Assembly: GCF_026626335.1 (NCBI RefSeq)
Contig: NZ_JAPNTZ010000005.1
Coordinates: 310,001 to 374,000, forward strand
Reading direction: 5' to 3'
DNA length: 64,000 nucleotides
Source of the DNA: Paractinoplanes pyxinae
Lineage (GTDB): Bacteria; Actinomycetota; Actinomycetes; Mycobacteriales; Micromonosporaceae
Shown: positions 33,138 through 63,855 of the stretch, piece after piece
How the letters are laid out: each line of letters begins with the position of its first letter
Numbering within the stretch: the first letter of the stretch is position 1
Made by a program: the position numbers and the translations under genes
Notes under the pieces: generated by a model
The model's database searches: none
Told to the model about the DNA's origin: nothing
What the model saw: the letters and a program-made list of their open reading frames with translations, nothing else

Positions 33138-34118
33138 GTGGACCAAGGCACGCTGGACCGGGCCCGCAGCGGCGACGCCGACGCCTTTCGCACGCTGACC
33201 GCGCCGCACGAGCGCGAACTGCTGCTGCACTGCTACCGGATGCTCGGTTCTCTGACCGACGCCGAAGACCTCCTGCAGGACACGATGCTCGCCGCGTGGC
33301 GCGGCCTGCCCGCTTTCGAGGGCCGCTCCTCTGTACGCACCTGGCTCTACCGCATAGCCACGAACCGCTGCCTCAACGCCCTCCGCGCCGGCCGCCGCAT
33401 ACCGCCGGAACCCGTCGCCCCGTTCGCCGTGCCCCCACCGACCCGGCGCGGCGAGGTCACCTGGCTTCAGCCGTACGCCGACAGCCTGCTCGAAGGCCTG
33501 CCGGAGCACACACCCGGCCCGGACGCCCGCTACGAGACGCAGGAGGCGGTGCAACTGGCGTTCATCACCGCCCTGCAGCGCATGCCGCCCCGCCAGGCCG
33601 CCACCCTCATCCTGCGCGACGTCCTCGGCTACCCGCTGCGGGACGTCGCGGCGATGCTCGACACGACCGAGACAGCCGTCAAGGGCACCCTGCAACGTGC
33701 ACGAGCCGCCGCCCCCGCCGCGTCGTTTCCCGCCTCGAGACGATCGCAACCCGACCGGCCCGCGAACAGGGCGGGGCGGCCGGAACTCCGCCGGGCTGAG
33801 GACGAGGTGTCACGACGGTTCGCGAAGGCGTTCACCGCGGGCGACGTCGACGGAGTGGTCGCCCTGCTCACCGACGACGCCTGGCTGCGCATGCCGCCCG
33901 CCCCGCACGAGTACCACGGCCGCGACGCCATCACGGCCTTCCTCCGGGCGAGCATGTCCCACGCCGCCGGCCGGGGCCTCACGCTGCACCCCACCCGGGC
34001 CAACGCCCAGCCAGCGTTCACGGCATCCCTCTCCGGCGAGCCGGCCGGAATCATCGTCCTGACCGTGGCCGGTGACCGGATGACGGCCATCACGCGCTTC
34101 CACGGTGTCCGGTTCTAG
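33138..34118 (+). CDS. ECF sigma factor with C-terminal SnoaL-like domain (SigG-like)
   Basis: A 326-aa sigma factor. Region 2 is HERELLLHCYRMLGSLTDAEDLLQDTMLAAW with FEGRSSVRTWLYRIATNRCLNAL. Region 4 lies at about residues 130-190 (LQRMPPRQAATLILRDVLGY, LRDVAAMLDTTETAVKGTLQRARA). After an Arg/Pro linker, residues 215-326 form an NTF2/SnoaL-like domain (FAKAFTAGDVDGVVALLTDDAWLRMPP) as in mycobacterial SigG/SigJ-type factors, where it modulates activity without an anti-sigma. GTG start at 33138. The 136-bp structured repeat begins two bases after its stop and would form its 3' UTR. Confidence 0.9.
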   Translation: MDQGTLDRARSGDADAFRTLTAPHERELLLHCYRMLGSLTDAEDLLQDTMLAAWRGLPAFEGRSSVRTWLYRIATNRCLNALRAGRRIPPEPVAPFAVPPPTRRGEVTWLQPYADSLLEGLPEHTPGPDARYETQEAVQLAFITALQRMPPRQAATLILRDVLGYPLRDVAAMLDTTETAVKGTLQRARAAAPAASFPASRRSQPDRPANRAGRPELRRAEDEVSRRFAKAFTAGDVDGVVALLTDDAWLRMPPAPHEYHGRDAITAFLRASMSHAAGRGLTLHPTRANAQPAFTASLSGEPAGIIVLTVAGDRMTAITRFHGVRF

Positions 34119-34120
34119 GA

Positions 34121-34256
34121 GCGCAACCACTCACGCAGGTCGCCCGGGTGGTTTTCGCGTTCTGGACGCGCCAGCGGCCAGCGGAAGCCGCCCGGGCCCT
34201 CGGCGGGAGCGACGGTCTGTAACCCACCACCCCGCTACGACATCAGCCTTTGACCT
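34121..34256 (+). ncRNA. Structured dispersed repeat, copy A (candidate RNA element)
   Basis: This 136-bp stretch matches 63157-63292 along its whole length without gaps. The flanks are near-identical, but the stem arms differ. Arms 34145-34158 and 34181-34194 pair at all 14 positions, three as U-G. In copy B the same 14 positions also pair, with both partners changed at several places. The 22-base loop holds CTGG-ACGCG-CCAG (34162-34174) and is almost unchanged. An outer GTCGC (34139-34143) pairs with GCGAC (34209-34213). The wobble pairs work only if the plus strand is transcribed, which here is the 3' UTR of the sigma gene. Confidence 0.6.
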
Positions 34257-34271: not shown

Positions 34272-34442
34272 CTAAGAGGTGACGATCAGCAGCAGCCAGC
34301 CCAGCAGCAACGCCCCCAGCAGAGCCGCCAGCACCCACGTCGGGACGCGATGGCCGCCCTCGCGATTGCGCCGGATCTCGGCCCGGATGCGGTCGCGCTT
34401 GCGCTCCACCCGGGAGCGCGGTTGCTGGTCGGGCCCGTCCAT
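34272..34442 (-). CDS. Small single-pass membrane protein downstream of pafA
   Basis: A 56-aa protein. The first 33 residues are polar and strongly basic (SRVERKRDRIRAEIRRNREG). The rest is one hydrophobic helix (VLAALLGALLLGWLLLIVT) ending at Ser. It starts at ATG 34442, 18 bp after the pafA stop, and ends at TAG 34272-34274. It looks like a tail-anchored or C-in membrane protein with a basic coiled-coil-like head. The tight spacing implies co-transcription with pafA. I do not know a function; it could tether PafA or another partner to the membrane (speculation). Confidence 0.75.
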   Translation of the reverse strand: MDGPDQQPRSRVERKRDRIRAEIRRNREGGHRVPTWVLAALLGALLLGWLLLIVTS

Positions 34443-34460: not shown

Positions 34461-35819
34461 TCACATGCTGGCGATCAACCGCTCCACCCGCTCGTCGTAC
34501 GCGCGGAACGGGTCTTTGCAGAGCACGGTGCGCTGCGCCTGGTCGTTGAGCTTGAGGTGCACCCAGTCGACGGTGAAGTCGCGGCGCTTCTCCTGCGCGT
34601 GGCGGATGAACTCGCCGCGCAGGCGGGCCCGGGTGGTCTGCGGCGGCGTCTCCTTCGCCTCGAAGATCTCGAGGTCGTTGGAGATGCGGTCGACCTGCTT
34701 GCGCTTCTCCATCAGCGCGTAGAGGCCGCGGCCCCGGCGCACGTCGTGGTAGGCCAGGTCGAGCTGGGCGACCCGCGGGTGGCTCATCGGGATCTGGTGC
34801 TTGGCCTGGTAGCGCTCGATCAGCTTGTACTTCGAGACCCAGTCGATCTCGCGCGAGACCGGGTCGAGGTCGCCCGTCTCGATCGCGTTGAGCACGCGGC
34901 CCCACAGCTCGACGACGCGCTTGGCGGTCTGGTCGCCGCCGCGGCGCTCGACGAACTCGGTCGCCTTGGCCAGGTACTCCTGCTGGATCTCGAGGGCGCT
35001 GACCTCTTTGTTGTTGGCCAGGCGGATCTTGCGGCGACCGGTGATGTCGTGGCTGACCTCGCGGATGGCCCGGATCGGGTTCTCGAGCGAGAGGTCGCGC
35101 ATGACCACGCCGGCCTCGATCATGCGGAGCACGATGTCGGCGCTGCCCACCTTGAGCAGCGTCGTCACCTCGTTCATGTTGGAGTCGCCCACGATGACGT
35201 GCAGGCGGCGGTAGCGCTCGGCGTCGGCGTGCGGCTCGTCGCGCGTGTTGATGATCGGGCGGGACCGCGTCGTCGCGCTGGAGACGCCCTCCCAGATGTG
35301 CTCGGCGCGCTGCGAGAGGCAGAAGACGGCGCCGCGCGGGGTCTGCAGCACCTTGCCGGCGCCGCAGATGAGCTGACGGGTCACTAGGAACGGGATGAGG
35401 ACGTCGGCGAGCCGGCCGAACTCGCCGTGGCGCGACACGAGGTAGTTCTCGTGACAGCCGTACGAGTTGCCGGCGGAGTCGGTGTTGTTCTTGAACAGGT
35501 AGATCTCGCCCGCGATGCCCTCGTCGTGCAGCCGTTTCTCGGCGTCGACCAGCAGGCCCTCGAGAATCCGCTCGCCGGCCCGGTCGTGCGCGACCAGGTC
35601 GGTGACGGAGTCGCACTCGGGGGTCGCGTACTCGGGGTGGGAACCGACATCGAGGTAGAGGCGGGCGCCGTTACGGAGGAAAACGTTGCTGCTGCGTCCC
35701 CAGGACACCACTCGGCGGAACAGGTAGCGGGCCACCTCGTCGGGCGACAGCCGCCGCTGCCCCCGGTAAGTACACGTGACGCCGTACTCGGTCTCGAGGC
35801 CGAAAATTCGCCGTTCCAT
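34461..35819 (-). CDS. pafA: Pup-protein ligase PafA
   Basis: A 452-aa carboxylate-amine ligase of the glutamine-synthetase-like fold. It joins the C-terminal Glu of Pup to lysines of target proteins using ATP. The N-terminal [15 protein letters not shown] strand carries metal-binding Glu residues, the catalytic Asp is Asp57 in [15 protein letters not shown], and [20 protein letters not shown] and [20 protein letters not shown] are family landmarks. Its length fits PafA (about 450) rather than Dop (about 500). An ATG start with TAGTGT six bases upstream suggests a leaderless transcript. In mycobacteria it precedes pafB, but here about 11 kb separates them. Confidence 0.96.
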
Positions 35820-63100: not shown

Positions 63101-63156
63101 CCCGCCAGACTCACCGCGCCCCCGACTCCGGTCAAGCAACACGGGTTTGCTTCTGG

Positions 63157-63292
63157 GCGCAACCACTCACGCACGTCGCCGTGGTGGGGTGAGCGCTCTG
63201 GACGCGCCAGCGGCCAGCTCACCCCGCCGCGGCCCTCGGCGGGAGCGACGGTCTGCAACCCCCCGCCCCGCTACGACATCAAGCTCTTGACC
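63157..63292 (+). ncRNA. Structured dispersed repeat, copy B (candidate RNA element)
   Basis: The second copy of the 136-bp element, gap-free against 34121-34256. Stem arms 63181-63194 and 63217-63230 pair at all 14 positions although most differ from copy A. The loop 63195-63216 keeps CTGG-ACGCG-CCAG, and outer GTCGC (63175-63179)/GCGAC (63245-63249) pairing is retained. It lies between the AraC gene (start 63100) and the membrane protein gene (stop 63304), both on the minus strand. U-G pairs again favour plus-strand transcription, antisense to both neighbours. Confidence 0.6.
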
Positions 63293-63303
63293 TTGACCCT
63301 TGA

Positions 63304-63855
63304 TCAGACTTTCGCGGGCAGGCGGCGATGCAGTTCGGCCAGCAGCACCTCGGGGGCCGGCGACATCAGCCCCACGTCCACGAGGTACGCGATCCGGCCG
63401 GCGCGGCGGCGGGTGCGAGGTGGGCGGCCGATCCCGTGCAAGGGCTCGGCGAACTCGGCGTCGACCGGGGTGATGATGAGTTCCGTGAAGGGACCGCGGT
63501 AACGCAGCGCCACCTCGCCGATGCCGGCCCACGGAATGTGCACGGGGCGGCGACCGGTGGCGGCGAAGTCGAGGCCGCGCATCGAGCTGTGCAGCCAGCC
63601 GAGCCGGTTCCAGGCGGTGAGCAGGATCAGAGCGGACAGCACGACGGGCACGATCAGCGCCAGCTCGAGGTAGACGACCAGGTCGCCGGCGGTCGGGGTA
63701 TCGCCCATGGCCACGCGGATCAGGGCGAACAGGGCAAGCGTGGTGATCCACACGGCGGCGACCACCCACAGCATCGTGACGTAGACCATCGCGCGGGGCT
63801 GGAAGAACGTCACCGTGTCGTCGTCGGGTCCGAGGACCTCGTCGATGTGCGTCAC
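63304..63855 (-). CDS. Membrane protein with PH-like cytoplasmic domain
   Basis: A 183-aa protein with two hydrophobic helices (MVYVTMLWVVAAVWITTLALFAL and LVVYLELALIVPVVLSALILLTAW) followed by a beta-rich domain (LDFAATGRRPVHIPWAGIGEVALRYRGPFTELIITPVD) that looks like a bacterial PH (bPH) fold. It is a probable membrane-anchored protein of unknown role. It ends 12 bp after the 3' end of the structured repeat (copy B), which is read from the other strand. Confidence 0.75.
   Translation of the reverse strand: MTHIDEVLGPDDDTVTFFQPRAMVYVTMLWVVAAVWITTLALFALIRVAMGDTPTAGDLVVYLELALIVPVVLSALILLTAWNRLGWLHSSMRGLDFAATGRRPVHIPWAGIGEVALRYRGPFTELIITPVDAEFAEPLHGIGRPPRTRRRAGRIAYLVDVGLMSPAPEVLLAELHRRLPAKV

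Follow-up and report, generated by a model that had tools for sequence, protein, structure and literature searches.

The 64,000-nucleotide stretch of Paractinoplanes pyxinae DNA that we analyzed (the window) contains two segments of 136 bp, copy A (34121–34256) and copy B (63157–63292), in which a pair of arms has changed in sequence from one copy to the other and has remained complementary in both. This raises the question of whether a fold is being maintained here, on which strand it forms, and what kind of element carries it. Pairwise alignment over the 136 positions required no gap and showed 24 mismatches, 12 of them within the 28 arm bases; of the 12 mismatches beyond the arms, 7 fall in the final 11 bases, which belong to a variable tail. 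The 14 arm pairs named in an earlier reading of this DNA (the sequence-only reading) are standard pairs in both copies, and 6 of them are altered on both sides (A/B: CG/GC, GC/UG, UG/GC, UA/GC, UG/GC, and CG/AU). Both the gapless alignment with all 14 pairs kept and the count of 5 wobble pairs given in that reading (3 in copy A and 2 in copy B) were reproduced.

The same reading had described a two-copy element, and this had to be given up: a search of the P. pyxinae genome (10.18 Mb) returned 36 rows on both strands, corresponding to 35 full copies and one partial match. A covariance model (R1) was built from the 35 own-genome copies, and a broader model (R2) was also used. The two segments in the window are real copies, but the model shifts their limits and places a conserved core of 126 nt at 34119–34244 in copy A (R1 154.5 bits; R2 139 bits) and at 63155–63280 in copy B (R1 146.3 bits; R2 130.5 bits), both on the plus strand. 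From 5′ to 3′, the core consists of a small hairpin, a long one in which the stem varies freely in sequence but stays paired, a third one that has a GNRA loop and two bulged bases, and a C-rich end that is conserved. In copy A, the small helix H1 (34121–34123 with 34134–34136, enclosing a 10-nt loop) occupies 34121–34136. The long hairpin H2 follows, with the 5′ arm of its variable stem at 34142–34158, a conserved tip at 34163–34180 (6 pairs, 34163–34169 with 34174–34180, loop GCCA), and the 3′ arm at 34181–34197. The 14 pairs compared between A and B do form, but the full stem has 17 bp and bears the second helix of 6 pairs on top. Hairpin H3 (34201–34214) has the GNRA tetraloop GGGA at 34205–34208 and a 2-nt bulge at 34211–34212. 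It is followed by the C-rich conserved 3′ end, as seen in the family alignments (34215–34244, ending CACCACCCCGCTACGACATC), and by a degenerate short tail, agcctttgac (34245–34254). In copy B, a G/T-rich tract (gggtttgcttct, 63143–63154) abuts the core, the arms of H2 lie at 63178–63194 and 63217–63233 according to folding and the comparison with copy A, H3 is placed at 63237–63250 by the family counts (GNRA loop 63241–63244, bulge 63247–63248), and a tail of CTTGAY-like units (aagctcttgaccttgacccttgatc) runs from 63281 to 63305. When copy B was folded alone, as RNA or as DNA, the H3 stretch paired differently.

The enlarged sets of copies allow the pairing to be judged. Among the 35 own-genome copies, 12 of the 17 H2 pairs are altered on both sides, and in 37 non-redundant copies from many genomes this number rises to 16 of 17. 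In the own-genome set, 99.1% of the cells of H2 and its tip are paired versus 86.5% in shuffles, and in the 37-copy set, 92.6% of the cells of the whole structure (30 pairs) are paired versus 77.5% when shuffled; because column shuffles keep the relatedness among the copies, these figures are no probabilities. Shifting the partner by 1 to 3 columns in the 37 copies lowers the paired cells to 30% to 42%. Support is uneven along the molecule. The H1 helix is weakly supported (86.2% of cells paired, with a double change in one of three pairs), and double changes in H3 are present in a larger set of 130 rows only and in none of the 37; in the 130 rows, the pair beside the H3 loop (85-92) is G-C in 116, A-U in 13, and G-U in 1. 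Altogether, the letters of the long stem change while its fold is kept, which indicates that selection protects the fold. The sequence-only reading had predicted that additional covarying copies would speak for a plus-strand fold under selection, and this was borne out: more copies exist, and 16 of 17 stem pairs are double-changed.

The folded strand was determined on the 130-row set, which was obtained from two alignments fitted to R1 (A3 and A4, 70 and 97 rows) by discarding duplicates and any row containing over 15 gaps. Across these 130 distinct copies, the 2982 cells of H2 and its tip contain 245 G·U wobbles and a single A·C. Wobbles of a fold formed by the minus strand would read A·C; hence, the folding strand of the element is the plus strand. 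The element thereby shows two features of structured RNAs, covariation beyond the make-up of the columns (relatedness stays in the shuffles) and a fixed folded strand. When single copies were folded as plus-strand RNA, the outcome was only moderately unusual in shuffle tests (z −2.5 for copy A and −3.2 for copy B), and the weight is carried by covariation. The sequence-only reading had concluded that the wobbles require plus-strand transcription. Its choice of strand was right, but the statement was too strong, since copy B folds as well as plus-strand single-stranded DNA (z −3.65; 0 of 200 shuffles); its minus strand gives z −0.75 as RNA and −0.53 as DNA. G·T pairs are tolerated in single-stranded DNA, and both the strand bias of the DNA fold and this tolerance would suit a REP-like DNA element. 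In such an element, the plus strand would fold as single-stranded DNA, and a DNA transposase (HUH-type or another kind) with its gene elsewhere would move it, with no part played by RNA. We consider this explanation unlikely. GNRA loops are a mark of RNA, and the H3 loop is spelled GGGA in 101 rows, GTGA in 26, and GGAA, GTAA, and GAGA in 1 each, that is, GNRA in 130 of 130 rows; this restriction favours RNA through the general association of the motif. The 126 nt of the element also far exceed the 20 to 40 bp of REPs, and its own genome is without Y1_Tnp (PF01797). The plus strand probably folds as RNA.

Two further pairing schemes were considered for the core. The first consensus produced by RNAalifold contained an extra outer stem joining the 5′ end with the region around the GNRA hairpin, and it was not adopted. 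Part of its columns are nearly invariant and thus uninformative (16-87 pairs in 130 of 130 rows and 10-96 in 127 of 127), 18-85 cannot pair in 19 of 130 rows, including the 13 with A-U at 85-92, nor can 7-100 in 44 of 128, and pair 15-88 is formed in only 27 of 130 rows. A rival helix of GCGGG with CCCGC, also drawn by single-copy folding of copy B, is broken at 85-116 in 21 of 130 rows, including the 13 with A at column 85. Its outer part carries a compensated change from T-A to C-G at 82-118 in 9 rows, which form a sub-group, and given this sub-group, the GNRA hairpin and the GCGGG/CCCGC helix may be two folds that alternate. Within the adopted stem, pair 31-72 (34149/34190 in copy A) is a U·G wobble in 32 of the 35 own copies and in 82 of the 130 genus rows; at a position where any pair would do, it is perhaps a recognition feature.

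The occurrence of the element was then defined with the two models. R1 matched 52 of 60 same-genus genomes, with 1 to at least 58 matches each (at most 58 candidates per genome were scored, which makes counts of 57 to 58 lower bounds), and 8 of the 60 had no match. Among 200 genomes drawn from the order, with up to 17 candidates per genome scored, the own genome alone matched R1. R2, applied to 250 genomes of the family with up to 14 candidates per genome scored, matched 57, namely 53 of the same genus (own included) and 4 others. A deeper look with R2 at 12 genomes, down to E 0.05, gave 11 matches each in G334 and G304, which belong to another genus of the same family, two in G018, one each in G252 and G310, and zero in seven same-genus genomes. 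The stretches from G334 and G304 (L248, L251, and L253–L258) look like a distant sister family with a shared CGGC-GNRA-GC-RA-CG core and a long hairpin that is different, shorter, or missing. By eye, the GNRA core is present in all 8 of them, the long hairpin is unrelated in sequence in 6, and L254 and L257 have none; L258 holds three consecutive matches, from 1501, 1654, and 1816. An exact 57-base piece of the element was found in one named record, of Paractinoplanes aksuensis (Micromonosporaceae), which assigns the family to Paractinoplanes, probably the genus that also goes by the name Actinoplanes. The plasmid and phage collections searched gave zero matches, so carriage by phages or plasmids was rejected. 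A core-only pattern did hit 17 of 394 genomes of the class (own included) and 29 viral contigs, with 5 hits for the reversed control; these matches are attributed to chance, R2 on 46 such stretches giving nothing below E 0.002 and their flanks showing no hairpin by eye. Rfam had no match at gathering score in the whole window, and the nine matches around copy B at E up to 10 fell short of the gathering score and belonged without exception to microRNA or snoRNA models. A literature search at the level of abstracts, with most subscription journals outside its scope, returned no description of the family. Both searches agree with the suggestion that the element is undescribed.

Genes around the element were called with a home-made gene caller for 95 copies with wide flanks from six genomes. 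The flanking genes are convergent for 43 of these copies, co-directional for 44, and divergent for 8, and 2 of the 95 overlap a called gene. In the window, copy A is preceded by a plus-strand gene encoding sigma-70 regions 2 and 4 and a SnoaL-like domain (33138–34118), the stop codon of which abuts the core; on its 3′ side, beyond a called 45-aa ORF (34272–34409), stands the convergent Pup ligase gene (34461–35819, minus strand). The gene 3′ of copy B (63304–63855, minus strand) has no Pfam match, and its 3′ end is 23 nt off the core; the other neighbour encodes an AraC-type regulator by Pfam. No Pfam family occurred in more than 2 of the 63 nearest-neighbour proteins of the own copies (best 25 of 92 families considered). 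The preference for convergent over divergent gaps (43 versus 8 of 95) and the short distance to the stop codon of the convergent 3′-side gene, at a median of 34 nt from the 3′ end of the element, would be expected of a resident cis-acting 3′ element that works as a barrier to read-through, perhaps Rho-dependent. Once polymerase had run beyond the terminator of the upstream gene, the folded RNA and C-rich end would stop or degrade the transcript before antisense RNA to the convergent neighbour could arise, the fold would be kept for this function, and the copies would be homogenised by gene conversion. A plus-strand fold fits read-through RNA arriving from the 5′ side. This explanation is possible but doubtful. 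The 3′-side gene runs in the sense direction for 30 of the 95 copies, and REPs are similarly placed (PMC3733652). The convergent and co-directional placement, the inverted dimers, and the closeness to stop codons are those described for REPs, and they speak for the REP-like DNA element too.

Two observations concern the 3′ end of the core. It contains CTAC in 88 of 130 rows (34235–34238 and 63271–63274 in the window); this reads GTAG on the minus strand and could by analogy provide a stop codon for a convergent gene entering the element, as for GTAG REPs. The core end CACCCCGCTACGACATC recurs some tens of bases downstream of the copies in L012, L014, L017, L018, and L084 (with a base changed in L012 and L017), and this unit may stand or multiply alone.

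To describe the surroundings of the core, we profiled 120 nt on each side of 131 copies. Directly before the core, G reaches 0.61 and 0.53 at −6 and −5 and T 0.54, 0.66, and 0.72 at −4 to −2, and beyond about −30 the composition is near background. Of the 131 copies, 65 have a G2+T2+ pattern that runs up to the core, and the count at other offsets is 1 to 11. On the 3′ side, CTTGAY-like tail units decay over about 20 nt; YTTGAY is found within the first 45 nt of the tail in 88 of 131 copies, the control stretches giving 14 and 2 of 131, and one copy has seven NTTGAN units in a row. A target-site duplication was not found, the mean longest word shared by the two flanks being 4.72 versus 4.61 when shuffled (largest of 200 shuffles 4.86), and no terminal inverted repeats were seen by eye in an alignment of 35 copies. 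At a stricter score, a strong hairpin lies directly before the core in 12 of 131 copies versus 1 and 4 in controls, which rules out a terminator hairpin preceding every copy; at a looser score the numbers are 17 versus 12 and 9. The upstream tract forms 7.49 expected pairs with the element, versus 7.05 with a control stretch. These flanks also bear on the idea of a multi-copy family of trans-acting small RNA genes, each copy with its own promoter, for which the conserved unpaired stretches (the H1 loop and the C-rich 3′ end) could be taken as interaction sites. In the 60 nt upstream of the 131 copies, however, only the adjacent G/T tract stands out and no promoter-like positions were seen, and genes of this kind would not normally be expected in 35 copies per genome, next to neighbours from unrelated families. 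We regard this explanation as very improbable.

In the six-genome set, copies also occur in close pairs less than 250 nt apart (L072, L078, L081, L148, and L161). All 5 pairs are inverted with their 5′ ends facing, and in 4 of the 5 a strong hairpin adjoins at least one copy. The 5′ ends of the pairs in L046 and L105 likewise face each other. Between the inverted copies of L068 (G000) and L079 (G011), a 210-aa ORF and a 407-aa gene, respectively, are found on opposite strands; their proteins are 86% alike, and the difference is possibly an inversion between two elements.

Comparison of sites between genomes informs on the history of the family. For at least 14 of the 35 own copies, the copies fetched from G002, G011, and G022 include one at the corresponding site, as judged by matching genes to either side, indicating that movement is not rampant now; that many sites are common to several species also fits the read-through barrier. 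When a single side matched, the conserved neighbour was the 3′-side gene in 19 comparisons and the 5′-side gene in 3, with 3 fitting neither and one copy and genome standing in both lists. This one-sidedness favours a barrier acting on the 3′-side gene; the double entry weakens the count, and the bias may be simple closeness to the 3′-side stop codon. Two sites were followed across relatives. At the first, flanked by the TerC and TypA/BipA genes, an inverted pair surrounds a terminator-like hairpin in the own genome, G002, and G011; G043 has two inverted copies wider apart, and G049 and G003 have one copy in the stretch fetched. At this site, 17 of 20 stretches chosen from 60 relatives have no R2 match at E 0.01, some of these stretches possibly being too short to span the whole gap. 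At the second site, 13 of 20 chosen stretches have no R2 match, 1 is doubtful (L228, 17.9 bits), and 6 match, among them a weak match (L236, 30 bits) and three shorter variants (L230, L232, and L234); in twelve of the other stretches, the two matched genes lie only 14 to 38 bp apart. Orthologous sites are therefore either empty or filled, which means that the element is gained or lost as a whole unit, and one site can hold different subtypes. Presence or absence as a unit at orthologous sites, together with the lack of a protein of its own, is characteristic of the broad class of small non-autonomous mobile repeats. The empty orthologous stretches (17 of 20 and 13 of 20) and match counts ranging from 0 to at least 58 within one genus argue against a resident barrier.

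Likeness between copies differs from genome to genome. Own copies have a mean likeness of 0.890, versus 0.839 and 0.836 with same-site copies in G011 and G002 and 0.821 and 0.813 for other cross-genome pairs. Likeness within G002 (0.805) and within G011 (0.815) is below that of their 13 same-site pairs (0.865; 6 are best matches). In a tree of 91 copies from four genomes, the nearest neighbour of 33 of the 35 own copies is another own copy, and the tree has 29 label changes versus a shuffled mean of 46 (minimum 38). Judged by sequence likeness, the own lineage shows recent spread or gene conversion, and G002 and G011 show inheritance at shared sites. Loss by deletion could also account for the empty sites, and gene conversion for the likeness of the own copies.

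Candidate mobilising proteins were searched for by profile. Y1_Tnp (PF01797) had no match in the own genome, with 5 of 14 control genomes matching. RVT_1 (PF00078) matched 41 of 60 same-genus genomes and had zero matches in G010, G023, G001, and G066, which carry at least 57, 43, 24, and 18 element matches. With element-rich genomes lacking RVT_1 and the own genome lacking PF01797, neither family is supported as the mobiliser. The best explanation, which we put forward with slightly less than even confidence, is that these copies belong to a new family of small, non-autonomous, dispersed, and fold-constrained mobile elements, the plus strand of which must fold. The failure to find a mobilising protein or a target-site duplication, the inheritance seen in G002 and G011, the scarcity of strong hairpins before the core (12 of 131), and the equally good folding of plus-strand DNA count against it. 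The dispersed copies, the covarying plus-strand fold, and the presence or absence as a unit agree with the sequence-only reading, which had proposed an undescribed noncoding RNA or a non-autonomous mobile element. What the computations show directly is how the element folds and on which strand, that its copies are dispersed, which flanks they prefer, and that orthologous sites may be filled or empty; we infer that the element is transcribed, that RNA is the moving form, that a factor is involved, why close pairs arise, and that sites were gained rather than lost. Transcription from the 5′ side, often from a same-direction gene and from beyond its terminator, would read the copy, and the RNA of the element would fold and be bound by a putative trans-acting factor. 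Copies would then insert behind G/T-rich tracts near the 3′ ends of genes in a fixed orientation, leaving the CTTGAY-like short tail. A palindromic terminator would bear a G/T-rich tract on both strands and could thus give rise to the close inverted pairs with facing 5′ ends. A much bolder version makes the element a bacterial counterpart of SINEs: a protein-less RNA copied into DNA in trans, by an enzyme other than an RVT_1-type reverse transcriptase or a Y1 transposase, and placed behind terminators and G/T-rich tracts. Recognition would be through its fold (the GNRA hairpin and the sequence-free stem), and it would end in a tail of short repeated units. We think this version quite improbable.

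The fold, rebuilt pair by pair across the genus, is thus a trait under selection. If RNA moves, the question would be which enzyme copies short RNAs into bacterial chromosomes, and if the element is a barrier to read-through, it would represent a recurrent device that insulates convergent genes from each other. In both cases the element lends itself to testing, since it comes with dozens of natural variants, with sites that lack it, and with a clear model of its sequence.

Several known systems resemble the element in part. The bcr1 repeat of the Bacillus cereus group is dispersed, similar in size, has an RNA-like fold and suspected mobility, and produces a target duplication. It belongs to another phylum, and its target duplication was not found in the present element. 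The target-site duplication of MITEs was likewise not found. ERIC elements are also known as RU-1. RU-1 is a small mobile sequence of 127 bp present in many intergenic regions of enterobacteria (PMC2759123). ERIC/IRU-type repeats resemble our element, which is probably mobile too, in length, small size, and intergenic distribution; they differ in sequence and in the bacteria that carry them, and the abstracts searched mention no invariant GNRA hairpin next to a stem re-formed through double changes. Group IIC introns insert beside a DNA stem-loop (PMC10190682). Like them, the element is probably a structured RNA, and their insertion by stem-loops resembles its location behind G/T-rich tracts and sometimes hairpins; it has 126 nt, however, and a strong hairpin precedes only 12 of 131 copies. 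There is no Rfam intron match in the window, and the four element-rich genomes named above have no RVT_1.

REPs are the closest in placement. They are palindromes of 20 to 40 bp with an unpaired GTAG tag or a CGTC tag, the GTAG super-family having RAYT transposases (PMC3733652); they are dispersed and intergenic, lie mostly behind genes, between convergent or co-directional ones, form inverted dimers, and have heterogeneous stems. The CGTC type has, besides its tag, a stem of 8 to 9 bp, a loop of 4 to 5 nt, and a CCA-like tail (PMC3733652). The element agrees with REPs in being dispersed, hairpin-forming, intergenic, located mostly 3′ of genes, arranged in inverted dimers, and heterogeneous in its stems. 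It differs from the GTAG type in its 126-nt core, three hairpins, GNRA loop, upstream G/T tract, and repeat-like tail; GTAG is present near the end on the reverse strand in 88 of 130 rows, but it is the plus strand that folds, and the RAYT/Y1 transposase family (PF01797) is absent from the own genome. It differs from the CGTC type in its stem of 17 bp with a 6-pair tip; CGTC lies immediately 5′ of H2 in 70 of 130 rows. Its placement is thus like that of REP and ERIC-type repeats, and the size, tag, and transposase features of REPs fail. Dispersed bacterial repeats have mostly been treated as palindromes; here the folding strand can be named, and the pairing has been rebuilt across a genus.
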